Source: Roseateles sp. DAIF2 (GTDB lineage: Bacteria; Pseudomonadota; Gammaproteobacteria; Burkholderiales; Burkholderiaceae_C). Taken from it: a stretch of 64,000 bases of DNA. The notes under the pieces were generated by a model, which saw only the letters and a list, made by a program, of their open reading frames with translations, had not been told where the DNA came from and did no database searches. Below, one piece after another: positions 43,634 to 60,318 of the stretch. The first letter of the stretch is position 1; each line of letters begins with the position of its first letter. Location: positions 4,030,001 through 4,094,000 of the forward strand of contig NZ_CP049919.1 in NCBI RefSeq assembly GCF_015624425.1, in the 5' to 3' direction. A program made the translations under genes and the position numbers.

Positions 43634-43660
43634 CAAGCGACTTTAGGGCAAGGCCTGGGG

Positions 43661-43753
43661 CGGAGGGGAATGGGAGTCGAACCCACCCGGCGACGCATGG
43701 CGCCACCCACCGGGTTTGAAGCCCGGCCGACACACCGGTGTCGTTTCCCCTCC
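43661..43753 (-). tRNA. selC: tRNA-Sec (UCA anticodon)
   Basis: A 93-nt tRNA gene with features unique to selenocysteine tRNA: an 8-bp acceptor stem (GGAGGGGA / TCCCCTCC), a long D stem with a minimal loop, an anticodon loop CTTCAAA with anticodon TCA (43717-43719), a long variable arm, and a T arm GGGTGGGTTCGACTCCC. Discriminator G; the CCA end is not encoded (GCC follows). Charged with Ser, then converted to selenocysteinyl-tRNA by SelA, it reads the UGA at codon 196 of fdhG with SelB. It lies 21 bp downstream of selB. Confidence 0.97.
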
Positions 43754-43773
43754 ATGAATCCCTTGGGGTTCAT

Positions 43774-45708
43774 TCATGATGCCGACGCCTCGTCGGCAAA
43801 CAGCGTCGACTCGGCGCGCAGCTTGTGCAGATCGCCCACGCGGCGCAGCAGGCCGACGCGGTCGAAATACTCCAGGATCTGGATCGCGCGCTTGCGGCCC
43901 AGGCCGGTCGCGTCGCGAAAGGCCGCCGCCAGCACCTGCCCCTCCTGCTCCCGCGCCAGGCGCCGCGCGATGCCTGCCAATGTGCGCATCGGCTGGGTCG
44001 CGTAGTAGAGGTCTTTCACCACTTGATGCACCTCGCCCTGCTGGGCCAGGCGGGCCAGGGTCGTGCGCATCAGCGGCTCGGGCTCGGCGGCGTCGCGTGC
44101 CAGGTCGCGCGCCCAGGCCCCCTCGAAGCCGGCCTCGGCCAGGCGCGGCGCCACCTTCTGCGCGATGCGCTGCTCGGCGGCCGACAGGCGCACGCCATGC
44201 TCTGGCAGGTGCACGAAGGCGCCGCGCTGCGCCAGCGCGCCCTGCTCGCGCAGGCGCGCCAGCAGGGCCAGCCACAGCGGCTCCGGCAGGCGCGGCGCGG
44301 CCAGGCGGCGCAGACGCGCCGCGTCCGGCCCCAGTTCGTCGGGCTGGCGCGCATGGAAGTCGCGCAGCGCGGTCAGCGCCCGCTCGCCCAGCGCCGCCGC
44401 GGCCAGCTCGGCCAAGGCCCAGCGCGCCTCGCCGGCCGCCGCCTGCAGCGCCGCTGCTCCCTCCAGCTGAGGTGGCTGCGCGAGCCCCTCGGCCCGCGCG
44501 AAGCGCGCCAGATCCAGCCCCAGCGGCGCCACCGCCAGCAGGGCCTGCAGGCGCTCGGCCGATGTCTCGCGCTGCAGCGCGACCAGCTCGGCCAGGCGCT
44601 CCGGCGTGCGGCGGTAGCGCGCCGGCGCGAACGGGTCCAGCACCACGCCGCCGGCCAGGGTGCGGCTGGCCGCCGCATCGCGCAGCACCACACGGTCGCC
44701 GCGCCAGGCGCCGATGGGTTCGCGCAGCAGCAGCTGCACGAGGGCCTCGCCGCCCGGCGCCAGGGTCTCCACGTCCAGCAGCGCGACCGCGCCGAGCTGC
44801 GCTCGCGCGCCCAGATGCACGAACACCGGCGTGCCGGAACGCAGCGCCTTGGCCTCGCCGGGCCAGAGGGTCAGGCGCGCATCCAGCCGCTCGGTGGCCA
44901 GCGCCACCGCGGGTTCGCACAGCCATTGGCCGCGCTCGATCTCGTCGCGCGCCAGCCCGACCAGGTTCAGCGCGCAGCGCTGGCCGGCGCTCGCCCGCGG
45001 GACCGCGCGGTTCTGCGCATGCAGGCTGCGCACCCGCGCGCGGCGGCCGCGGGATGCATCGGGCGCCAGCGCCAGCTCGGCGCCCAGCGCCACCGCGCCG
45101 GCATGCACGGTGCCGGTCGCGACGGTGCCGACGCCGTCCAGGCTGAAGGCCCGGTCCACCGCGAGGCGGAAGGCCCGCTCCTCCCCTGCCGCTGACGGAA
45201 CCACCTGCGAGGCCTCGCGCAGCAGCAGCTCGCGCAGCGCGGCCATGCCCTGCCCGCTCGGCGCGCTCACCTCCAGCAGCGGCGCCGCGGCCAGGAAGGT
45301 CCCGTCCAGCAGGGCCGCAATCTCGGCCCGCAGCACGGCCAGGCGGGCCGCATCGGCGACGCGATCGCATTTGGTGATCAGCACCGCACCGCGCATCAGC
45401 CCCAGCAGCGACAGCACCGCCAGATGCTCGCGCGTCTGCGGCATCACGCCGTCATCGGCGGCCACCAGCAGCAGCGCGTAGTCGATGCCGGTGGCGCCGG
45501 CCAGCATCGTGTGCACCAGGCGCTCATGGCCGGGCACGTCGATGAAGCCGATGCGCTGCCCATCCGGCGCATCAAGAAAGGCATAGCCCAGCTCGATGCT
45601 GATGCCGCGCTGCTTCTCCTCCGGCAGCCGGTCGGTGTCGACGCCGGTCAGCACCCGCACCAGCGTGGTCTTGCCATGGTCGATATGACCGGCGGTGCCG
45701 ACGATCAT
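43774..45708 (-). CDS. selB: Selenocysteine-specific elongation factor SelB
   Basis: SelB brings selenocysteinyl-tRNA to the ribosome at UGA codons followed by a SECIS hairpin. The 644-residue protein begins with an EF-Tu-like GTPase (G1 GTAGHIDHGKTT, G3 DVPGHE, G4 TKCD in place of NKxD), followed by beta-barrel domains and C-terminal winged helices (last about 250 residues) that bind SECIS RNA. The C-terminal part ends with GLGRKRAIQILEYFDRVGLLRRVGDLHKLR, typical of the last winged helix. Length matches E. coli SelB. tRNA-Sec follows after 20 bp; a transglutaminase-like gene precedes it. Confidence 0.97.
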   Translation of the reverse strand: MIVGTAGHIDHGKTTLVRVLTGVDTDRLPEEKQRGISIELGYAFLDAPDGQRIGFIDVPGHERLVHTMLAGATGIDYALLLVAADDGVMPQTREHLAVLSLLGLMRGAVLITKCDRVADAARLAVLRAEIAALLDGTFLAAAPLLEVSAPSGQGMAALRELLLREASQVVPSAAGEERAFRLAVDRAFSLDGVGTVATGTVHAGAVALGAELALAPDASRGRRARVRSLHAQNRAVPRASAGQRCALNLVGLARDEIERGQWLCEPAVALATERLDARLTLWPGEAKALRSGTPVFVHLGARAQLGAVALLDVETLAPGGEALVQLLLREPIGAWRGDRVVLRDAAASRTLAGGVVLDPFAPARYRRTPERLAELVALQRETSAERLQALLAVAPLGLDLARFARAEGLAQPPQLEGAAALQAAAGEARWALAELAAAALGERALTALRDFHARQPDELGPDAARLRRLAAPRLPEPLWLALLARLREQGALAQRGAFVHLPEHGVRLSAAEQRIAQKVAPRLAEAGFEGAWARDLARDAAEPEPLMRTTLARLAQQGEVHQVVKDLYYATQPMRTLAGIARRLAREQEGQVLAAAFRDATGLGRKRAIQILEYFDRVGLLRRVGDLHKLRAESTLFADEASAS

Positions 45709-45724
45709 GGTCGCCCCGGTGCGC

Positions 45725-46840
45725 TCAGATTTCCTTCGCGCTGATGCTGTACTTGAAGCTGTCCGGCGCCAGCTCGTCGAAGCGGCCGCTGCGGTTCTCG
45801 CCCTGCGGGTACATCAGGAAGGGCAGGCTGGCCTTGCCGGCGCTGCCGGGCAGCATCAGGTCATGCGCGGTGTTGTAGCCGACCCAGTTGCCCTCCCAGC
45901 CGCCGAACAGGCCCTCGTTGACCGGCGCCACCAGCGGATGCGCCGGGTCCTTGATCCATTCCGGCGTCTCCTGGCGCATCACCTTCAGCACATCGGCCGG
46001 GTCCATCGCGACCCAGCCATGGGCCTGCAGGAAGACCTCGGCGCGGCAATGCTGCGCGCCCTTCAGCCCGGCCGGATTGGCGCCCAGCTCGCGGTAGCCA
46101 AAGGCCGAGGGCACCAGACGCAGACCGTAGACATCGCGCGCCGGCACGCCCACCGAGCGGCACAGGCCGACGAAGATCGCATTCAGGTCCGCGCATTTGC
46201 CGCCCAGGTTGCCGGTCTCCAGCATCGTGCGCACATCGCCGGTGCCACAGCCGCGCACCTTGGGCTCGCGGTGCGCGTTGGCCACCACCCAGCGGTAGAT
46301 CGCGCGGGTCTTCTCAAGATCGGTCCGGGCGCCACGCGTCGCCTCCAGCGCGGTCTTGCGCACGATGCCGTCGGTCGGGATCAGCTCGGTCGGTGCCAGG
46401 TTGGCGCGCAGCACCTCGGGGTCCTCGCCGACGCGGCCGGCCTTCCTGCTCCAGTCGACCGCGCGGCTCTGCGTCTGCAGCCGGCTGACCAGCTGCAGGC
46501 TCGGCGCCTTCACGCTCTCGGGGAACTCGGCGTAGAGCATGCGCACGCCGCGCGGCGCGTCGGCCACCACCTGCATCACGCTCGCATTGCCGCTGAAGCT
46601 GTGGCCCAGGCTGCGCTGGTAGCCGGTTTCCAGATCGGGCAGCGGCAGCCAGAGCTTGGTCGTGCCCTGGTGGTCGGCGACCGACACGTCCAGCGTCAGC
46701 TCGAAGCTGCGCCAGGTGCCGGGCCGCGGCTCGAAGCGGCGCGCCGCCGCGGCGGCGCCCTGGGCCTGGCCCAGCGACGGCAGGCCGGCGATGGCCGCGG
46801 CGGCGGAACCTTGGATCAGTTGGCGGCGGGTCAGGGTCAT
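45725..46840 (-). CDS. Exported transglutaminase-like protein within the sel operon
   Basis: A 371-residue protein with a Tat-like signal (TRRQLIQGSAAAAIAGLPSLGQAQ) and a transglutaminase/protease-like core: TRAIYRWVVANAHREPK, GGKCADLNAIFVGLCRSVGVPARDVYGLRL with Cys216, QHCRAEVFL with His264 and VAMDPADV with Asp280, forming the Cys-His-Asp triad. The N-terminal 150 residues form a separate beta-rich domain. Such proteins may be cysteine proteases, amidases or cross-linkers in the periplasm. It sits between the TlpA-like gene and selB, all on one strand with gaps of 22 and 16 bp, so it is probably co-transcribed with the selenocysteine genes; the reason is unknown. Confidence 0.88.
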   Translation of the reverse strand: MTLTRRQLIQGSAAAAIAGLPSLGQAQGAAAAARRFEPRPGTWRSFELTLDVSVADHQGTTKLWLPLPDLETGYQRSLGHSFSGNASVMQVVADAPRGVRMLYAEFPESVKAPSLQLVSRLQTQSRAVDWSRKAGRVGEDPEVLRANLAPTELIPTDGIVRKTALEATRGARTDLEKTRAIYRWVVANAHREPKVRGCGTGDVRTMLETGNLGGKCADLNAIFVGLCRSVGVPARDVYGLRLVPSAFGYRELGANPAGLKGAQHCRAEVFLQAHGWVAMDPADVLKVMRQETPEWIKDPAHPLVAPVNEGLFGGWEGNWVGYNTAHDLMLPGSAGKASLPFLMYPQGENRSGRFDELAPDSFKYSISAKEI

Positions 46841-46862
46841 GATGGGGTTCTCCTCGGAAGAT

Positions 46863-47366
46863 TCAGGGGGCCAGCAGCGGCTCGATCCACTGGCGGGCCT
46901 GCGGGCCGGTCCAGTCGAGCTCGCCGATCACCGAAAAGGCGGCGCGGCCGTCGCGGCCGATCAGCACGCTGGTCGGGAAGATGCGCACGCCGAAGGCGCG
47001 CGTCGTGGCGCCGTCGGCATCGCGCAGGATGGGCAGGCTGATCGGCATCTGCTGCATGAAGCGCCGGATCGCCGCGTCGGTCTCGCGGTGGTTGATCGCC
47101 AGCACCTGCAGGCCGCGCGCCTCGTACTTCTGCGCCAGCAGCTCCAGCGAGGGCATCTCGCTGCGGCAGGGCTCGCACCAGCTGGCCCAGAAGTTCAGCA
47201 GCAGCAGCTTGCCGCGCGCCTGCGCCGGCTCGAAGCCCGGGCCCTCGAAGCCCGGCAGGGCCAGCGGCGGGGTCGGCGCCTTGGCCGGCCAGGGGCGGCG
47301 CAGCACATCGGAAAACGCCGGCATGGCGGCAGCGGCCAGGGAAAACAGCAGGTGGCGGCGCTTCAT
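46863..47366 (-). CDS. TlpA-like thioredoxin-fold protein coupled to selA
   Basis: A 167-residue exported thioredoxin-fold protein with an N-terminal signal sequence ([18 protein letters not shown]) and the redox motif WASWCEPCR (Cys64, Cys67), typical of TlpA/ResA/CcmG-type disulfide reductases. [16 protein letters not shown] carries the cis-Pro region. Its ATG overlaps the selA stop (ATGA), so translation is coupled. Presence of a periplasmic thiol-redox protein in the selenocysteine operon is unusual; it could protect or assemble the exported selenoenzyme, but that is inference. Confidence 0.92.
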
Positions 47367-48808
47367 CGCAGGATTTCGGACAAAGCCGGCAATTGTCGCA
47401 GCAGCTCCGCCTCGCGCCCGTCCAGGCAGCGGCAGTCGAGCCAGAGCCGGTCCTCGGCGATGCGGCCGATCACCGGCAGCGGCAGGCCGCGCAGCGCGGT
47501 GGCCAGGCGCTCCAGCGCGCTGCCGACGCCGCGAGCGCCGACGGGCGAGATCGTCAGCCCCGCCGACGGCAGGCGTTCGACGGGCAGCGAGCCCGAACCG
47601 ATCTGGCCCAGCATCGGCGCCACCGCCACCGCGTAGCGCGGCGCCAGCGCACGGGCCAGCGCGGGCGCCAGGCGCTGCGCCTGCGCCTCGATCTCGGCCA
47701 GCGGCCGGGTCAGCAGGCGCAGGGTCGGTAAGTCCTGCGCCAGCCGCTCCGGCCGCAGGTACAGGCGCAGCGTGGCCTCCAGCGCGGCCAGCGGCAGCTT
47801 GCTCATGCGCAGCGCGCGCTTCATCGGGAACTTGCGGATGCGCTGGATCTGCTCGCGCCGGCCGACGATCAGCCCGGCCTGCGGGCCGCCCAGCAGCTTG
47901 TCGCCGCTGAAGGTGACGACATCGCAACCGGCCACCAGCATCTGCTGCGGCATCGGCTCCGGCGGCAGGCCCCATTGCGCCAGGTCCACCAGCGCGCCGC
48001 TTCCCAGGTCGGTGACCAGCGGCAGGCCCCGCGCATGGGCGATCGGCGCCAGGGTCGTCTCGTCGACCGCGGCGGTGAAGCCCTGCACCTGGTAGTTGCT
48101 GGTGTGCACCTTCATCAGCATCGCCGTGCGCTCGTTGATCGCGCCCTCGTAGTCGCGCGCATGGGTGCGGTTGGTCGTGCCCACCTCGACCAGGCTGGCG
48201 CCGGCGCTGGCCATCACATCGGGCATGCGGAAGGCGCCGCCGATCTCGACCAGCTCGCCGCGCGAGACGATCACCTCGCGGCCCCGGGCCAGCGCCGCGA
48301 TCGACAGCAGCACCGCGGCCGCGTTGTTGTTGACCACGGTGGCGGCCTCGGCCCCGGTCAGCTCGCACAGCAGGCCCTCGACCAGGTCGTCACGGTCGCC
48401 GCGCCCGCCGGACTCGAGGTCGTACTCGAGGTTGTTGGGCCCGCTCATCAGCGCCAGCAGCCGCTCCAGCGCCGCATCGGCCAGCAGCGCGCGGCCCAGG
48501 TTGGTGTGGATCACGGTGCCGGTCAGGTTCAGCACCGCGCGCATGCGGCTTTGCAGACGCTCCGCCACGCGCCGCTCCAGCGCCGCCTCCAACGCGGCGG
48601 GCTGCAGCGCGTCCAGGCCCAGCTCCTGCGCCAGCACGAGCGCGCGCAGGCCGTCCAGCAGCGCGCGCGCCTCGCCGGCCACCAGGCTGTGGCCATGTTC
48701 CTGCAGCAGCGCGGCCGCCGCGGGCAGGCGCAGCAGCTTGTCGATCGAGGGCAGATCCTTTGGTACCGCCTTCGTGCCGTGAACCACGGACGCCTCGGGC
48801 GCGGCCAT
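47363..48808 (-). CDS. selA: L-seryl-tRNA(Sec) selenium transferase SelA
   Basis: SelA, a PLP enzyme, converts seryl-tRNA-Sec to selenocysteinyl-tRNA-Sec using selenophosphate. The 481-residue protein has the family N-domain ([12 protein letters not shown]), [62 protein letters not shown] and the PLP Lys304 in [13 protein letters not shown]. Start and stop both overlap neighbours by ATGA (fdhE upstream, TlpA-like gene downstream). Selenophosphate must come from SelD, which is not in this window. Confidence 0.97.
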
Positions 48809-49812
48809 CAGCGGCCTCCGCCGGGATCGGGCGGCGCCGCGGCGTCCGGGTCGCCGAACAGCAGCAGCAGGTTGACGCCATGGCGCTGCAGGCCGGTCTC
48901 GGCCACCAGCAGGTCCAGGGTCAGCGAGGCCAGGTCGTCGGCCAGCGGCTCGACCTGATGGTCCTTTTCCATGTGCACGATCTTCAGGTAATGACCGCAA
49001 GTCTCGCAGCATTCGACCTGCACCGCCGCCTCATCCGCCTGGCCCTGGCCGTCCAGCGCCTGCAGGGCCTGGAAGCTGATGCCCTTGGTGCCCTGGCAAT
49101 GCGCGCATTTGATGCGCACGTAATGCCATTGCGTCGCGCACAGGCTGCAGGCCAGGTAGCGAAAGCCCGAGCCCTCGGCGCCGATGCGGGTGATGCTGGC
49201 GCTGGGCCGGCTGCCGCAGCAGGGGCAGACCAGCGGATCGTCGATGCGGCCGAAGGGGGCCAGCGGGTCCGTGCCATGGCGCGCCTGCACGCCGGCGATC
49301 AGCCGCGCCCAGTGCAGCTGCAGGGCCGCGCCGATCAGCGGCGCCGTGCCCAGGTCCAAGCCCAGCATCACGCCCGACAGCAGGCGTTCGGCCTGCAGCT
49401 CCAGATGCTCGTCGAACACGGCGGCCAGGCGCAGCGCGGTGTCGCGCGCCGGGCCGGGCGGCACGCGCGCGGCCAGGCCCTGCAGCAGCGCGCGCAGGTC
49501 CCCGCGCCAGGCCGGGTCGCGCGGCCAGCGCTGCGCGTCCAGCAGCGGCCGGCCGGCATTGGCCGCGGCCTCGATCTGGGCCGGCGTGGGCAGCGCTGGT
49601 GTGGCCGGGACCTGCAGCAGCTCATGCTGGCCACGCGCCAGCTCGGCGCAGAACAGCAGGTAGTCGCGCATCGCATGGCCGGCGGCGAGCTGGCGCAGGC
49701 GCAGCTCGCGCTCGGCGAACAGGCCCGGCTCGGGCAGGCGCAGCAGGGTCACCTGCTCACCGGCCCGTACCGCGATCTCCTCGGGGGACAGCAGCCGGGT
49801 GCCGACGCTCAT
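48808..49812 (-). CDS. fdhE: Formate dehydrogenase accessory protein FdhE
   Basis: FdhE is a cytoplasmic accessory protein needed for maturation or quality control of respiratory formate dehydrogenases before Tat export. The 334-residue protein contains the four CxxC motifs of the rubredoxin-like iron site: [25 protein letters not shown] and CETCGHYL (about residues 195-280). Start overlaps the gamma-subunit stop, end overlaps selA, both by ATGA. Normal length for the family. Confidence 0.95.
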
Positions 49813-50444
49813 CGGCCCTCCGTCGGGCGCTTGGCCACGCCCATCTCGTCGGCCCACAAGGGGTGGTGCTGACGCGCCCAGGCCTCGCTGACCTCGCCGC
49901 GGGTCATCGCGGGGATCGAGCCCTTGACCCAGATGGCCGCATAGATGTGGACGATGGCGCCCAGGATCAGGCAGACGGCCGCGATCGCATGCACCAGCAC
50001 CGCGATGCGCCGCGCCAGGATCGGGAAGGCGTCGGCGAACCAGGGTTGCCAGAACATCACGCCGGTCACCAGCAGCAGCAGCAGGCAGATCGTCATCAGC
50101 CAGAACACGCCCTTCTGGCCGGCGTTGTATTTGCCGACCGGCGGCATCGCATGCTCGTCGCCTCTCAGGAGGCTCGGGCTGCGGCGCGCCCATTCGGTGT
50201 CGGAGCGGCTCCACAGATTGCTGCGCCAGAAGCGCAGGAACATGCCGAGGAAGCCCAGGCACATCGCCACACCCAGGAAGGGATGGAGGATGCGGGTCCA
50301 GGGGCCGCCGCCGAACAGCGCGGTCAGGAAGTAGAAGGCCGGATGGAAGAAGGCCAGGCCGGACAGGCCGGCCAGGATGAAGCACAGCGCGACGATCCAG
50401 TGGTTGATGCGATCGCCGTCCTTGTAGCGTTGCAGCATTCTCAT
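49809..50444 (-). CDS. fdhI: Formate dehydrogenase gamma subunit, cytochrome b556 (FdnI/FdoI)
   Basis: The 211-residue membrane subunit takes electrons from the beta subunit and passes them to quinone. It has four transmembrane helices and the expected heme-ligand His residues (INHWIVALCF, RILHPFLGV, VLVHAIAAV, AIVHIYAAIW). The length equals E. coli FdoI. I chose the ATG at 50444 because its distance to the GAGGAG ribosome-binding site is six bases; the ATG one codon before (50447) would be only three bases away. The gap to the beta-subunit stop is 10 bp. Confidence 0.95.
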   Translation of the reverse strand: MRMLQRYKDGDRINHWIVALCFILAGLSGLAFFHPAFYFLTALFGGGPWTRILHPFLGVAMCLGFLGMFLRFWRSNLWSRSDTEWARRSPSLLRGDEHAMPPVGKYNAGQKGVFWLMTICLLLLLVTGVMFWQPWFADAFPILARRIAVLVHAIAAVCLILGAIVHIYAAIWVKGSIPAMTRGEVSEAWARQHHPLWADEMGVAKRPTEGR

Positions 50445-50454
50445 CATGGGCTCC

Positions 50455-51333
50455 TCAGCTCTCGTCCTTGCTGCCACCCTCGGTGCGGATCGGGCCGACC
50501 TTGATGTAGTGGAAGAAGCCCGCCACCACCGCGCCGATCATCGCCGCCACCGCCAGCGGCTTGGCCACGCCCTTCCACAGCGCCACCAGCGGGCTGATGC
50601 GCGGATCGGCCGGCAGGCCATGGTAGAGCTCGGGCTTGTCGGCATGCTGCAGCACATAGACCACATGGGTGCCGCCGACGCCCGGCGGGTCGTAGACCCC
50701 GGCGTTCTGGTAGCCGCGCTCCTTCAGGTCGACCACGCGCTCGGCGCCGAAGTCCAGCATGTCCTCCTTGGAGCCGAAGCGGATCGCGCCGGTCGGACAG
50801 ACCTTGACGCAGGCCGGCTCCAGGCCGACGCCAACGCGATCAGAACAGAGCGAACATTTGTAGGCCTTGTTGTCGAGCTGGGACAGGCGCGGCACGTCGA
50901 AGGGACAGCCGGTCACGCAGTTGCCGCAGCCGACGCAATGCTCGCTGATGAAGTCGACGATGCCGTTGCTGTACTTGACGATCGCACCCGGCGCCGGACA
51001 GGCCTTCAGGCAGCCGGGGTCCTCGCAGTGCATGCAGCCGTCCTTGCGGATCAGCCATTCCAGCCGGTTCGGCTCCGGCTCGATCTCCGAGTAGCGCATC
51101 ACGGTCCAGGACTGGGGACTGAGATCGCGCGGGTTGTCGTAGGTGCCGACGTTGCTGCCGACCTCGTCGCGCAGATCGTTCCACTGCATGCACGCCACCT
51201 GGCAGGCCTTGCAGCCGATGCAGGAGCTGACATCGATCAGTTTCGCGACCTCGACGCTGGAGCGGCGCGCCTGGGGACTCGGCGTGGTGGTGGCCGAGCG
51301 CTTGGCAATGTCCAGGGATTGAAGGGAACTCAT
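50455..51333 (-). CDS. fdhB: Formate dehydrogenase beta subunit, iron-sulfur (FdnH/FdoH)
   Basis: A 292-residue electron-transfer subunit with four [4Fe-4S] clusters: [46 protein letters not shown] and CSLCSDRV...[10 protein letters not shown]. The C-terminus has one membrane helix (about 250-275, [19 protein letters not shown]) that anchors it beside the gamma subunit, with the Fe-S domain in the periplasm. A perfect AGGAGG lies seven bases before the chosen ATG at 51333. The 124 bp to fdhG contain a three-hairpin repeat. Confidence 0.97.
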
Positions 51334-51380
51334 TCGGTGCCTCCTCGACGGATGTGCCCGCATTTCCAAGCGGCGGCCGT

Positions 51381-51448
51381 GGCTCCGGCTGTGCCGGGCC
51401 ACTGGCTGCGCCCCCTGGTAGGGGGCCGGCGAAGCCGGTAGGGGGTGG
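51381..51448 (-). repeat. Three-hairpin intergenic repeat, copy 2 (between fdhG and fdhB)
   Basis: 68 bp; minus-strand hairpins CCGGCTTCGCCGG, CCCCCTACCAGGGGG and CCGGCACAGCCGG. It starts 9 bp after the fdhG stop and ends 47 bp before the fdhB start, inside the operon. Loop bases differ from copy 1 while the stems are kept. Confidence 0.85.
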
Positions 51449-51457
51449 CCTGATTCA

Positions 51458-54400
51458 TCAGGCCCTCTCGATATTCACGGTGAAGCTCTTGAACTCGGGC
51501 GTCTGGGTGTTCGCATCGCCCACGAAGGGGGTCAGCGTGTTGACCAGATAGCCGGGTTTGGCCACACCGACAAAGCCCCAGTGATTGGGCAGCCCCACCG
51601 TGTGCACTTTCTTGCCGTCCACCTCCAGCACCGGGATGCGCTTGCTCACCACCGCCACGGCCTTGATGAAGCCGCGCTTGGAGCTGACCTTGACCCAGCC
51701 GCCGTTGGCGATGCCCTTCTCCTTGGCCAGCTCCTCGCCGATCTCGACGAACTGCTGCGGCTGGATGATGGCCGAGGTCTCGACGTTCTTGGTCCAGTAG
51801 TGGAAATGCTCGGTCAGCCGGTAGCTGGTCGCCACATAGGGGAAGTCCTTGGGCGTGCCGAAGGTCTCCAGATCGCTCTTGAACACACGGGCCACCGGAT
51901 TGGAGCGGGCCTTGGCGTTGTTCGGATGCATCGGGTTGGCGGCCAGCGGCGACTCCAGCGGCTCGTAATGCTCGGGCAGCGGCCCGTCCACCAGGCCGCT
52001 GGGCGCGAACAGGCGCGCCACGCCCTCGGCGGTCATGATGAAGGGACGCACCGCCTCCTCGTCGCCGGGGTTGGCGTCGGGGCGGATGTCCGGCACGTCG
52101 GAGCCGGCCCAGCGCTCGCCGTTCCAGGCCACCAGGCGGCGCTTGGCGTTCCAGGGCTTGCCGCCGGGGTCGGAGGAAGCGGCGTTGTAGAGGATGCGCC
52201 GGTTCGCCGGCCAGGCCCAGGCCCAGTTCAGCGTCTGGCCGATGCCGAAGGGATCGCTGTTGTCGCGCCGCGCCATCTGGTTGCCGCCCTGGGTCCAGCT
52301 GCCGGCGTAGATCCAGCAGCCGCAGGCGGTGGAGCCGTCGTCGCGCAGCAGGCCGAAGCCGGCGAGCTGCTCGCCGGCCTTGGCCAGCACCTTGGTGGCG
52401 TCCTTCGGGTCGGTCACGTCGGCCAGGGCCTTGCCGTTCGACTCCATCGCCAGCTCCTCGGGCGAGGGGCTCAGCGGGATCCTGTAGGGCCAGCTTAGGT
52501 TGACGATCGGATCAGGGAAGGCGCCGCCCTCCTTCTGGTACAGCGCCCTCATGCGCAGGAAGATCTCCGCGATGATCTCCGCGTCGCCCTTGGCCTCGCC
52601 GGGCGGCTCGGCGCCCTTCCAGTGCCATTGCAACCAGCGGCCGGAGTTGGTCAGCGAGCCGTCCTCCTCGGCGAAGCAGGTGCTGGGCAGGCGGAACACC
52701 GTGGTCTGGATCGCCTCGCTGTTGACGTCGTTGTGCTCGCCGAAGTTGCGCCAGAACTCGGCCGTCTCGGTGTTGAGCGGGTCGATGATGGCGAGGAATT
52801 TCAGCTTGGACAGGCCGTCGATCACCTTCTTCTTGTTCGGGAAGGAGCCGACCGGGTTGAAGCCCTGGCAGATGTAGCCGTTCATCTTGCCCTGGTTCAT
52901 CAGCTCGAAGGCCTGCAGCACGTCGTAGCCCTTGTCCCATTTCGGCAGGTAGTGGTAGGCCCAGTCGTTCTCCTTGGTCGCGGCCTTGCCCCACCAGGAC
53001 TTCTGGAAGCTGACGAAGAACTTGGGGTAGTTCTGCCAGAAGCTCATCTGCCCCGGCCGCAGCGGCTTCAGGGCACGGGTCTTGTAGTAGGTCTCCAGGT
53101 CCTGCTCGGCATCGCGCGGCAGGCTCATATAGCCGGTCAGCGAGGTCGAGAGCAGGCCCAGATCGGTCAGGCCCTGGATGTTGCTGTGGCCGCGCAGCGC
53201 GTTCATGCCGCCACCGGGCTGGCCGATATTGCCCAGCAGCAGCTGCACGATCGCGCCGGTGCGTATCATCTGCGAGCCCTGGCTGTGCTGCGTCCAACCC
53301 AGCGCATACATGATGGTCATCACCTTGCCGGGCACCGCGGTGCCTGCGATCATCTCGCAGCACTTGAGGAACTGGTCCTTGGGCGTGCCGGTGATCTTGC
53401 TGACCATCTCCGGCGTGTAGCGCGCGTAATGCCGCTTCATCACCTGCAGCACGCAGCGCTCATGCTGCAGGGTGTCGTCGACCTTGGCGAAGCCCTTGTC
53501 GTCGAGCTCATAGGCCCAGCTGGCGTTGTTGTAGGCGCGCTTGCTCTCGTCGTAGCCGGAGAACAGGCCGTCCTCGAACCTGTAGCCCTCGTTGATCAGG
53601 AAGCCGGCGTTGGTGTAGTGCTTGACGTACTCCTGCTGGATCTTGTTGTTCGACAAGAGATAGTGGATCACCCCGGCCAGGAAGGCGATGTCCGAGCCGG
53701 CGCGGATCGGCGCGTAGTAGTCGCTCATCGCGGCCGAGCGCGTGAAGCGCGGGTCCACGACCAGCAGTCGGGCCTTGTTCTTGTGCTTGGCCTCGATCAC
53801 CCACTTGAAGCCGCAGGGATGCGCCTCGGCGGCATTGCCGCCCATGATCAGCACGAGGTCGGCGTTCTTGATGTCCACCCAGTGGTTGGTCATCGCGCCG
53901 CGTCCGAACGTCGGGGCCAGACTGGCCACCGTCGGTCCGTGTCAAACGCGTGCCTGGTTGTCGAAGACCAGCATCCCCATCGAGCGCATCGCCTTGTGGG
54001 TGATGTAGCCCGATTCATTCGAGGATGCCGACGCACAGAGCATGCCGGTCGAGAGCCAGCGGTTGACCGTCTTACCGTCGGCGTTGCTGGCGATGAAGTT
54101 GGCGTCGCGGTCCGCCTTCATCAGCTTGACCAGGCGGTCCATCGCCTCGTCCCAGCTGACGCGCTTCCATTCCTTGGCGCCGGGCTCGCGGATCTCCGGC
54201 CACTTCAGGCGGTTCGGGCTCTTGACGAAATCGAGCAGGCCGGCGCCCTTCGGACACAAGGTGCCGCGATTGACCGGGTGGTCCGGGTCGCCCTCGATAT
54301 GGATGATTTCGCTGGTGACGTTCTTGGCCTTGTCGCCCAGCGAGTACATGATGATGCCGCAGCCCACCGAGCAATAAGGGCAGGTGTTGCGGGTCTCGGT

Positions 54401-54529
54401 CGCCCGGGAGAGCTTGAAGTTGCGCGCCTCGGCCAGGGCCGCCATCGGCGAGAACCCCAGCACCGCCAGACTCGATCCGACGAGTCCCGCGCCGCTCACC
54501 CGGAAGAACTGCCTCCGGTCCATGTCCAT
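51458..54529 (-). CDS. fdhG: Formate dehydrogenase alpha subunit, selenocysteine-containing (FdnG/FdoG type)
   Basis: The catalytic subunit of a periplasmic formate dehydrogenase (formate to CO2, electrons to quinone). The reading frame is 1023 codons with one in-frame TGA at 53942-53944 (codon 196); sequence around it is [23 protein letters not shown], the same context and residue number as in E. coli FdnG. It is therefore a selenoprotein, not a pseudogene. Tat signal [12 protein letters not shown], [4Fe-4S] site CPYCSVGC (Cys50, 53, 57) with a fourth Cys in LCPKG, and [10 protein letters not shown] bis-MGD site. The ATG at 54529 has AGGAGG eight bases upstream. A SECIS-like hairpin follows the TGA; a sigma-54-type promoter lies upstream. 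Confidence 0.98.
53913..53930 (-). promoter_or_regulatory. SECIS-like hairpin for selenocysteine insertion in fdhG
   Basis: On the mRNA, 11 bases after the UGA, GGTGGCC-AGTCT-GGCCCC can form a hairpin with a perfect GGCC/GGCC upper stem and loop AGTCT plus a possible bulged U lower down. Distance and GU-containing loop match bacterial SECIS elements bound by SelB. Confidence 0.75.
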
Positions 54530-54560
54530 ACGATGTGCCTCCTGCGGGCCCAACCCCGCT

Positions 54561-54576
54561 TGCAGTGCTGATGCCA
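54561..54576 (-). promoter_or_regulatory. Sigma-54 (-24/-12) promoter of the fdh-sel operon
   Basis: TGGCATCAGCACTGCA on the minus strand matches TGGCAC-N5-TTGCA at all but two defined bases, with GG and GC at exact spacing. Predicted transcription start near 54550, giving a 21-base leader with AGGAGG before the fdhG ATG. Confidence 0.7.
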
Positions 54577-54665
54577 TCGGCCGTCACGCGACACTCGGGT
54601 CAATTCCCGCACAAATGCCGGGGTTTGTCCATCCAGGGCCAGCCCTCAGAAAAAAGGCCCGATCC

Positions 54666-54680
54666 GCGACAACTTGTCGC
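54666..54680. promoter_or_regulatory. Palindrome 1, candidate enhancer-binding site
   Basis: GCGACAA-C-TTGTCGC, a perfect palindrome of 7-bp arms. Its centre is about 123 bp upstream of the predicted fdhG start of transcription, the usual range for sigma-54 activator sites. Confidence 0.55.
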
Positions 54681-54692
54681 AGGGGTCATGTC

Positions 54693-54713
54693 TTGCGGGA
54701 TGCTGCATCGCAA
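54693..54713. promoter_or_regulatory. Palindrome 2, candidate enhancer-binding site
   Basis: TTGCG...CGCAA ends with GATGC-T-GCATC inside (two extra G in the left arm). Its centre is 30 bp from that of palindrome 1, close to three helical turns, so both sites would face the same side of the DNA. Both contain a GCGA/TCGC half-site core. Confidence 0.5.
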
Positions 54714-54753
54714 CATCCAAAACCGGGGAGGCAGGCAGGCTACAGTGGCCACG

Positions 54754-56763
54754 ATGAAGACCCGCCTCTCGCGCCCGCTGAGCCTGCGCAGCAAGCTGCT
54801 GCTGCTGGCCCTGCTGCCGCTGTGGGCGGTGCTGCCGCTGCTGGGCCTGATCCTGGTGTACTGGGGCGATGCGGCCTTCGACCGCCTCTTGATCACCAAG
54901 GTGCGCAGCGATCTGGCGGTCGCCAACGGCTATTTCGAGCGGGTGCAAGCCGAGATCGGCGGCGGCACCCGCGCCGCGGCCGGCGCGCACCGGCTGGTGC
55001 ATCTGCTGCAGCAGCAACCCGCGCGCCCGGAGCAGGCGGGCGAGCTGAGCCGCTTCCTGTCCAGGGCGCGGCTCGAGCATGGGCTGGAGTTCATCAACCT
55101 GCTGACGCCGGACGGCCGGCTGCGCGCCAACGAGCTGGGCCCGGTGCCGGACGAGGGCGCCGCACTGCCGCTGCTGGTGGCCGACATCAGCGGCGCGCTG
55201 GCCTCGATCGCGGTGCTGGAGCCGGCGGCGCTGCTGCGCATCGCGCCGGCGCTGCGCGACCGGCTCTCGATCCCGCTGCTGCCGACGCAGAACGCCGCGC
55301 CGACCGCGCGCGAACGCGAGGAGCGCGCGATGGTGATGATCGCCCGCGCGCCGATCCACGATGCCGAGGGCCGGCTGCTCGGCCATCTGCAGGGCGGCGT
55401 GCTGCTGAACCGCAACCTGCCCTTCATCGACCACCTCAACGAGATCGTCTACCCCGACGGCGCCCTGCCCGCCGGCAGCCAGGGCACGGCCACGCTGTTC
55501 CTCGACGATGTGCGCATCTCCACCAATGTGCGCCTCTTTGAGAGCTCGCGCGGCGACCGCGCGATCGGCACCCGCGTCTCGCGTCAGGTGCGCGACGAGG
55601 TGCTGGGCCGCGGCGGCACCTGGCTGGCCAGCGCCTTCGTCGTCAACGACTGGTATGTCTCGGCCTACCAGCCGCTCAGCAACAAGAGCGGCGAGCGGGT
55701 CGGCATGCTCTATGTCGGCTTCCTGGAGCGCCCATTCCAATGGGCCAAGTACAGCGTGCTGGCCGGCGTCGGCTTCGTGTTCCTGGCGGTGATGCTGCTG
55801 GCGGCCTGGGTCTCGCTGCGCTGGGCCGGCAGCATCTTCCGCCCGGTCGAGCGCATGGCGCGCACGATGGCCCGGGTCGAGGCCGGCGACAGCGCGGCCC
55901 GCGTCGGCGCGCTGCCGGCGCCCGACGAGCTGGGCGTGCTGGCCGGCCATCTGGACCATCTGCTGGACACGGTGGACGACAAGACCCGCGCGCTGCAGCG
56001 CTGGGGCGAGGAGCTGGACCGCAAGGTGGCCGAGCGTACCGCCGACCTGGAGGCCGCCCAGGCTCAGCTGGTGCAGAGCGAGAAGATGGCCACGGTGGGC
56101 CAGCTGACCGCCAGCATCGCGCATGAGATCAACAATCCGATCGCGGTGATCCAGGGCAATCTGGACCTGAGCCGCGAGCTGCTGGGCCCGGCCATCGAGC
56201 CGGCGCGCGCCGAGCTCAGGCTGATCGACCAGCAGATCGAGCGCATGCGCCTGATCGTCACCCAGCTGCTGCAGTACGCGCGGCCGACCGAATACGCCGG
56301 CTATGTCGAGTCGGTCGAGCCGGCCGATGCCCTGGCCAGCAGCCTGCTGCTGGTCGAGCACCAGCTGGCGCGCGCGCGCGTGCTGGTGCAGCGCGACTTC
56401 CGTGCGACGCGTCGGGTCGGCATCAACCGCCAGGAGCTCCAGCAGGTGCTGATCAACCTGCTGGTCAATGCCGCCCAGGCGATGCCGGATGGCGGCCGCC
56501 TGAGCCTGAGCTGCGAGGATTGGGACGGCCCCGCCGGCGAGGGCGTGCGCATCGCGGTAGCCGACACCGGCCCGGGCCTGAGCCCCGAGCTGCTGGCGCG
56601 GCTGTTCCAGCCCTTCGTCACCAACAAGAGCGAGGGCACCGGCCTGGGCCTGTGGATCAGCCGCAGCATCGTCGAGCGCTATGGCGGCGAGCTGCGCGCC
56701 GACAGCTCGCCCAGCGGGGCCTGCTTCAGCCTGCTGCTGCTGAGCGAGCCCGCACTCGTCTAG
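54754..56763 (+). CDS. Membrane sensor histidine kinase with periplasmic Cache-type domain
   Basis: A 669-residue kinase: membrane helix 1 (about 15-40), periplasmic Cache-like sensing domain (about 45-325), helix 2 (about 333-355), HAMP (about 355-410), coiled coil with KVAERTADLEAAQAQLVQSEKMATVGQL, phospho-acceptor His457 in SIAHEINNPIAV, and ATPase boxes NLLVNAAQAMP, ADTGPGLS and GTGLGLWIS. This C-terminal class is that of NtrB/DctB-type kinases that pair with sigma-54 activators. It is divergent from fdhG, whose upstream region contains a sigma-54-type promoter. No response regulator is found in the window. TACAGT at 54741-54746 may be its -10 element. Confidence 0.93.
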   Translation: MKTRLSRPLSLRSKLLLLALLPLWAVLPLLGLILVYWGDAAFDRLLITKVRSDLAVANGYFERVQAEIGGGTRAAAGAHRLVHLLQQQPARPEQAGELSRFLSRARLEHGLEFINLLTPDGRLRANELGPVPDEGAALPLLVADISGALASIAVLEPAALLRIAPALRDRLSIPLLPTQNAAPTAREREERAMVMIARAPIHDAEGRLLGHLQGGVLLNRNLPFIDHLNEIVYPDGALPAGSQGTATLFLDDVRISTNVRLFESSRGDRAIGTRVSRQVRDEVLGRGGTWLASAFVVNDWYVSAYQPLSNKSGERVGMLYVGFLERPFQWAKYSVLAGVGFVFLAVMLLAAWVSLRWAGSIFRPVERMARTMARVEAGDSAARVGALPAPDELGVLAGHLDHLLDTVDDKTRALQRWGEELDRKVAERTADLEAAQAQLVQSEKMATVGQLTASIAHEINNPIAVIQGNLDLSRELLGPAIEPARAELRLIDQQIERMRLIVTQLLQYARPTEYAGYVESVEPADALASSLLLVEHQLARARVLVQRDFRATRRVGINRQELQQVLINLLVNAAQAMPDGGRLSLSCEDWDGPAGEGVRIAVADTGPGLSPELLARLFQPFVTNKSEGTGLGLWISRSIVERYGGELRADSSPSGACFSLLLLSEPALV

Positions 56764-60031: not shown

Positions 60032-60107
60032 TGGTGGGCCCTGAGTGACTCGAACACTCGACCTACGGATTAAGAGTCCGCTGCTCTACCAACTGAGCTA
60101 AGAGCCC
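60032..60107 (-). tRNA. tRNA-Lys (CUU anticodon), copy 1
   Basis: 76 nt including an encoded CCA. Cloverleaf arms: GGGCTCT/AGGGCCC acceptor, AGCTCAGTTGGTAGAGC D arm, anticodon loop CTCTTAA, and T arm with GTTCGAGTC. Differs from copy 2 at the acceptor and T stem. Third of three tRNA genes on this transcript. Confidence 0.97.
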
Positions 60108-60151
60108 GAAATTTTCGTACTGCTGTCGTCGTCTACCGCGTCATGTTCGTT

Positions 60152-60227
60152 TGGTGGGCCCTGAAGGATTCGAACCTTCGACCAACGGATTAAGAGTCCG
60201 CTGCTCTACCAACTGAGCTAAGGACCC
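60152..60227 (-). tRNA. tRNA-Lys (CUU anticodon), copy 2
   Basis: 76 nt with encoded CCA. Acceptor GGGTCCT/AGGGCCC, the same anticodon loop CTCTTAA, T arm with GTTCGAATC. Nearly identical to copy 1 in the D and anticodon arms. Confidence 0.97.
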
Positions 60228-60242
60228 ACGAAACCACATGAC

Positions 60243-60318
60243 TGGTGGGTTGTGCAGGATTCGAACCTGCGACCAACGGATTAAAAGTCCGCTGCTCTAC
60301 CGACTGAGCTAACAACCC
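60243..60318 (-). tRNA. tRNA-Lys (UUU anticodon)
   Basis: 76 nt with encoded CCA. Acceptor GGGTTGT/ACAACCC, D arm AGCTCAGTCGGTAGAGC, anticodon loop CTTTTAA. First tRNA of the cluster behind a TATAAT promoter. Confidence 0.97.

Follow-up and report, generated by a model that had tools for sequence, protein, structure and literature searches.

A sensor histidine kinase gene without an adjacent response regulator (RR) gene diverges from the selenocysteine formate dehydrogenase gene fdhG in Roseateles sp. DAIF2, and the 224 bp gap between them (54530–54753) raises the question of which regulator, and which kind of promoter, operates there. The locus lies in a 64,000-nucleotide stretch (the window, to whose numbering the coordinates refer) of a 6,010,585-base genome that forms one contig and is listed as 100% complete. 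All of the features initially annotated in the gap (a candidate sigma-54 promoter and two palindromes) are present, but their reading is only half right: the kind of circuit agrees with the comparative data, and the promoter proposed for the present fdhG is probably wrong.

Organization of the locus

The fdhG gene (51458..54529, minus strand) encodes the alpha subunit of formate dehydrogenase-N, with the Sec TGA codon at 53942–53944, and its start at 54529 is preceded by an AGGAGG ribosome site. The remaining fdh-sel cluster (fdhH, fdhI, fdhE, selA, selB and tRNA-Sec) spans 43659..51402 on the same strand. Between selA and selB (45725–48368, minus) lie two further genes, one transglutaminase-like by Pfam and the other thioredoxin-like (TlpA/ResA-like, with matches below the NCBIfam cut-offs). 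The kinase gene (54754..56763, plus strand) encodes sCache_3_3, HAMP, HisKA and HATPase_c domains, all over cut-off. Three tandem tRNA-Lys genes (two CTT and one TTT) are located at 60032–60318 on the minus strand.

A missing response regulator gene and a surviving paralogue

Among the best 80 of at least 589 relatives of the kinase, 72 loci have an RR homologue directly upstream of the kinase, a homologue being defined by having L010, the RR of the window genome, as its best match among that genome's own bEBPs. Five of the other eight loci are at contig ends and three (L060, L086 and L093) are not. The gene order in two congeners (G224 and G327) is fdhG, RR, kinase, Mrp, and the window reads fdhG, kinase, Mrp; when the flanks of the RR gene are joined in either congener they align well with the window as an empty site. 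The local RR gene is cleanly absent from the window locus. The simplest history is that the local copy was lost and an older paralogue was left, loss being the presumed direction of change. A converse layout is seen at L194 (G202), with an RR beside fdhG and no kinase between RR and Mrp. At L154/L255 (G205) the RR and kinase share a single open frame in which the HTH part looks shifted, through error, decay or fusion; a fused protein was dropped as an interpretation because the shift may reflect an error or a decayed gene.

The window genome has 15 Sigma54_activat matches (10 strong and 5 weak), including one RR of this family at G000:C1:1127411-1128799 (predicted TTG start), with receiver, AAA+ and Fis-type HTH domains (PF00072, PF00158 and PF02954) over cut-off. 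The initial annotation had placed the activator outside the window and proposed a search for an NtrC-type regulator; none adjoins the kinase, and with this member found elsewhere in the genome the absence of any family activator is rejected. The surviving RR gene is divergent from an MFS transporter gene of the lactate/oxalate-formate group (a call from matches below the NCBIfam cut-offs except for one tail domain), a YdeP-like formate dehydrogenase gene and fdhD. Its closest relative found is the second RR copy of G224 (84%), and the tree separates these two, as another sub-branch, from the RRs that adjoin fdhG in the genus, so that the surviving RR need not accept the phosphoryl group of the kinase. 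At E 1e-40 there is one kinase match per genome in the window genome, G224 and G327.

Palindrome 1 as a predicted response regulator operator

Palindrome 1 (GCGACAACTTGTCGC, GCGACAA-N-TTGTCGC; 54666..54680) is centred at 54673, just as first annotated, and has 7 bp perfect arms. Perfect 7 bp palindromes with a 0–3 bp gap are found in 7.5% of 2,000 dinucleotide shuffles of the 224 bp gap, and none of the three annotated features is significant in the window alone, so that the case for palindrome 1 becomes very strong only with the genome-wide and comparative data. Perfect copies of GCGACAANTTGTCGC occur at two places in the 6.01 Mb genome, in the fdhG–kinase gap and, 2.96 Mb away, 45 bp before the predicted start of the surviving RR; a reversed-pattern control has no genome places at zero mismatches. 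At two mismatches there is no genome-wide enrichment (30 places for the pattern and 136 for the reversed control), and the genome-wide weight therefore rests on the perfect sites. In G224 there are two perfect sites, each ahead of one of its two RRs; G327 has a single RR and a single perfect site, and the window genome has two sites and one RR.

With up to two mismatches, the operator is present in the 400 bp searched at 53 of 80 RR entries (which include the window genome's own RR, and L089 twice), compared to 0.1 expected from random sequences with matched dinucleotide transitions. A tandem second copy is situated 21–24 bp away in 39 of these 53 loci and at control offsets of 26–29 bp in none, a spacing that marks a truly phased operator pair. 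In the window this second copy has degenerated, with mismatches at 10 of 14 positions, and none is kept ahead of the genome's own RR gene either (9 mismatches); both observations count against the model preferred below.

With up to two mismatches, the operator is present at one of 52 selenocysteine fdhG loci that have neither RR nor kinase beside fdhG. In this genome (G276), fdhG at 0.81 Mb is preceded by one perfect and one single-mismatch copy, with no RR or kinase in 5.5 kb and a co-directional MFS gene as the nearest identified upstream gene, and an RR–kinase pair is located ~2 Mb away at C1:2783101. This arrangement is the best evidence that an RR of this family may act on fdhG in trans. 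Another perfect copy of palindrome 1 lies far upstream of the unlinked G276 RR, past an HSP20 gene (L251:295-309).

Upstream stretches were examined for 60 of the 70 other selenocysteine fdhG genomes, and 25 of the 70 (two of them under the quality bar) were searched for the RR. At E 1e-100 no RR of the family is detected in 19 of the 25, and in none of these 19 does an operator lie within 400 bp of fdhG. Of the six positives, five had previously been seen to carry an RR next to fdhG, the operators of G307 and G185 have two mismatches, and G276 was chosen because its site had been seen beforehand; the informative parts are that G276 has an unlinked RR and that the 19 site-less genomes are RR-less. 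Palindrome 1 looks like a true operator, with binding by the formate dehydrogenase-associated NtrC-family RR predicted.

The sigma-54 candidate upstream of fdhG

The -24/-12 promoter proposed initially is TGGCATCAGCACTGCA (54561..54576, minus strand), positioned 31 nt from the fdhG ATG. Its letters, strand and GG-N10-GC spacing are as described, and it agrees with the sigma-54 consensus TGGCACG-N4-TTGCW at 9 of 12 positions, but a match of this quality is equalled by 12.2% of 5,000 dinucleotide shuffles of the gap on the same strand, and by 20.7% on either strand. Lack of conservation at orthologous loci had been named beforehand as evidence against this promoter, and such a site is missing in both G224 and G327, although RR and operator are kept there, and from within 100 bp of the ATG in eight of nine RR-linked selenocysteine fdhG loci (both congeners included), a count that leaves out the distant Rhodocyclales loci L094, L097 and L098 with intact loops. 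The single exception, G288, reaches 9/12 and has an RR with a GAYTGA loop. In the Rhodocyclales loci, sites are situated 40 nt from the ATG in L097 and L098 (10/12 each) and 65 nt from it in L094 (9/12), and TGGCATCAGCACTGCA at 31 nt could therefore be a remnant. Of 52 loci where fdhG has no neighbouring RR, none reaches 9/12 within 100 bp. The candidate is probably a chance match or a remnant. A generic sigma-70 scan gives no match, and the genome contains two rpoN genes.

The GAFTGA loop and -24/-12 sites across the RR family

Many relatives of the RR carry GAFTGA or GAYTGA as loop 1. In the surviving RR of the window genome, the putative cognate activator of palindrome 1, the AAA+ core GESGTGK is kept and loop 1 is altered to ELFGQAGWGADGHKSRDGLF (stretch GWGADG, one residue shorter); the fdhG-linked RR of G224 has lost nine residues at the loop, and the other nine bEBPs of the window genome keep GAFTGA-like loops. 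GAFTGA is absent from 15 of 17 members of the window-RR clade, with two Caldimonas RRs keeping the motif, in a tree with 13 unresolved forks and a single long branch (L027), drawn without G205 and G276. The loop has been altered on several separate branches of this one family.

Sigma-54 sites were counted at 79 RR entries with 500–800 bp of upstream sequence, scoring the strand facing the formate dehydrogenase gene over 720 bp; L149 and L181 were classified manually from their sequences. A formate dehydrogenase gene is divergent in 54 of the 79. Where it is divergent and the GAFTGA/GAYTGA loop is intact, 17 of 22 loci score at least 10/12, and where the loop is intact with no divergent formate dehydrogenase gene, 0 of 16 reach that score. 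None of the nine loop-less, divergent loci of the window clade (a clade read from the tree) reaches 10/12, and the difference from 17/22 has a Fisher p of about 0.0001 when loci are treated as independent despite their relatedness. Among loci with a substituted motif, 6 of 14 reach it. The initial proposal of a kinase/NtrC-type route tied to the fdh operon is supported, and in many relatives the route comes with -24/-12 sites; the only RR of the family left in the window genome is without the loop.

Loop loss is not always paired with promoter loss, as 7 of 8 loop-less divergent loci on the Rhodoferax/Tepidimonas side still score 10/12, which counts against the preferred model; at one of the seven (L050) the site lies 495 bp away from the start of the RR, probably within a gene. 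Searches of the eight loop-less genomes on this side revealed no second close RR in any of them, the next matches being at 39–44% or lacking. GAFTGA-less RRs with a 10/12 -24/-12 site upstream are found at L047, L050, L065, L067, L069, L075, L077 and L080, and no second close RR is present in the seven of these eight genomes that were searched (all but L075). The RRs of G205 and G276 have intact loops yet no -24/-12 site at fdhG, and these also count against the preferred model.

Other conserved elements in the gap

A promoter-like element, TGGACA-N17-NNRAAT with TGN before the second box, is located at 54603..54631 (minus strand). It is present in 12 of 62 selenocysteine fdhG loci, the window included, with a spacing of 17 in all 12, compared to 0.04 from mononucleotide shuffles; the element emerged only by comparison, and its pattern was picked after the alignment had been seen. 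A dyad form of the element (ACAAA-N8-TTTGT) is present in 14 of 60 loci, nine of which are RR-less. The element may act as the core promoter of fdhG or as a further operator. As a -10, its second box (GGGAAT) is poor, which counts against the model preferred below. A conserved block, GGCCGTCACGCGACAC (54579..54594), appears in a 25-locus alignment and is kept in some loci only, both with and without an RR. At the other end of the gap, alignments reveal a -10-like element, CTACAGTG (54740..54747, plus strand), right before the start codon of the kinase; its counterpart in the congeners stands before the RR gene.

Palindrome 2 as a predicted PhaR/PhbF-type site

Palindrome 2 (GGATGCTGCATCGCAACATCC; 54698..54718, with core TGCTGCATCGCAACA at 54701–54715) has 9 bp arms, and arms of this length with one mismatch and a 0–5 bp gap are present in 16.8% of 1,000 dinucleotide shuffles of the gap. 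The pattern of HupR-like sites is TTG-N5-CAA, and this assignment of palindrome 2 was set aside because a PhaR/PhbF motif fits better and occurs before a phasin gene. The footprint-supported PhbF motif reported for Herbaspirillum is TG[N]TGC[N]3GCAA (PMC3206438), which is matched by TGCTGCATCGCAA at 54701–54713. The pattern TGCTGCRNYGCARCA occurs at 11 distinct genomic places, and the control at none; two of these places precede a Phasin_2 gene, and some of the others fall within or next to genes that have no obvious connection to PHB. A PhaR-family gene is present in the window genome. Palindrome 2 is perfect in G224, G275 and L061 and not perfect in G327, and with up to one mismatch it is found in 19 of 80 RR entries (0.5 expected) as well as in 5 of the 52 loci that lack a linked RR. 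Given these genome-wide and comparative data, though not from the window alone, it is likely a PhaR/PhbF-type operator to which PhaR would bind, an assignment less secure than that of palindrome 1.

The two palindromes had been described as helically phased, with centres 30 bp apart at 54673 and 54703. The actual centre of palindrome 2 is at 54708, and the spacing of 35 bp corresponds to ~3.3 turns, out of phase; the motifs also differ, and in G224 the same two are 73 bp apart (-152 and -79). One duplicated phased site is thus rejected, given the different motifs, the 35 bp distance and a spacing that is not kept.

A proposed circuit and its alternatives

We propose that the fdhG–kinase gap is the control region of a formate dehydrogenase two-component system, in which palindrome 1 would be the operator of an NtrC-family RR normally encoded between the two genes, immediately ahead of the kinase. 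The local RR gene would have been deleted in this species while operator and promoter stayed, placing the -10-like element of the RR ahead of the kinase. The kinase may now phosphorylate the unlinked RR at G000:C1:1127411-1128799, which may act in trans on palindrome 1 and most likely modulates a non-sigma-54 promoter of fdhG, for which 54603–54631 is a candidate; a promoter of this kind is most likely because the RR has lost its GAFTGA loop and a conserved -24/-12 site is lacking. Palindrome 2 would add a PhaR-type input, reflecting PHB storage, near the kinase promoter. The combination of kinase, unlinked GAFTGA-less RR, palindrome 1 and non-sigma-54 fdhG promoter is predicted with reasonable, though far from complete, confidence.

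A point against this model is that the operator might serve chiefly the kinase/RR promoter instead of fdhG. In its strict form, palindrome 1 would be for RR/kinase autoregulation only, with fdhG no target and the arrangement an inherited divergence, and the sole other perfect site is indeed right before the RR gene. This we regard as rather unlikely, since in G276 the operator is before fdhG with the RR–kinase pair elsewhere, and the unlinked RR gene in the window genome is itself divergent from formate dehydrogenase genes. A working sigma-54 promoter at 54561–54576, with an NtrC-type activator on the palindromes as initially annotated, is favored by its GG-N10-GC spacing and 9/12 score, by a distance from the ATG near the 40–48 nt of L097, L098 and G288 (all with intact loops), by the lack of comparable sites in the 52 loci without an adjacent RR, and by the two rpoN genes and nine other bEBPs with GAFTGA-like loops; sigma-54-controlled formate dehydrogenases are also predicted in other proteobacteria (PMC12316311). 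It is nonetheless distinctly improbable given the absence of the site from both congeners despite their RR and operator, its frequency in shuffled sequence and an operator-tied RR without the GAFTGA loop. That the RR gene was dropped through misassembly, and not lost biologically, is highly improbable: the genome is one contig listed as complete, and the junction coincides with the start codon, the flanks on either side staying in register.

The preferred circuit, with its unlinked RR and non-sigma-54 promoter, offers a specific operator and regulator by name, together with a test set in which one RR family occurs with and without the sigma-54 loop, and this test set bears on the conversion of an enhancer-dependent control circuit into an ordinary one. 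It provides a clean case of a kinase without a linked regulator in which the site of the regulator is kept, and points to a regulator relevant for switching on selenocysteine formate dehydrogenase in these bacteria; the PhaR-type site, if true, would couple formate oxidation to PHB storage. A broader and more tentative reading, which we consider possible rather than probable, is that formate dehydrogenase two-component systems left sigma-54 more than once, with loops intact, substituted, replaced or shortened according to branch and intermediates without the loop that keep -24/-12. The window would then represent an end state in which the box is gone, the RR deleted and an unlinked paralogue acts on the retained operator, with a PHB-repressor site alongside.

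Comparison with known systems

In E. coli, the selenocysteine formate dehydrogenase gene fdhF is under sigma-54 control through FhlA, and fdnG is under Nar/Fnr control. Control of formate dehydrogenase is shared with the window, but the sensor (a Cache kinase) and the operator differ, and the RR matches the FhlA model far below cut-off, as it does many other bEBP models. The sigma-54 systems of NtrC and DctD share the kinase/RR architecture, and relatives of the window locus have tandem operators about two helical turns apart together with -24/-12 sites, whereas the window lineage is without the loop, a conserved -24/-12 site or a linked RR gene. Several proteobacterial classes are predicted to contain formate dehydrogenases under sigma-54 control (PMC12316311). 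Palindrome 2 fits the PhaR/PhbF operator motif (PMC3206438), but is a predicted site at a formate dehydrogenase/kinase control region and not at a pha gene. A limited literature search of titles and the opening parts of abstracts found no paper describing this system or a formate dehydrogenase regulator that lacks GAFTGA.

The closest parallels are the NtrC proteins of Caulobacter and Rhodobacter capsulatus, which have no GAFTGA and are reported to act on sigma-70 promoters (PMC10274813). By analogy with that report, the RR of the window genome may also act on sigma-70 promoters. These proteins share with it the receiver/AAA+/HTH build and an altered loop 1 (PMC10274813), but the window-type RR belongs to another family and is tied to formate dehydrogenase operons.
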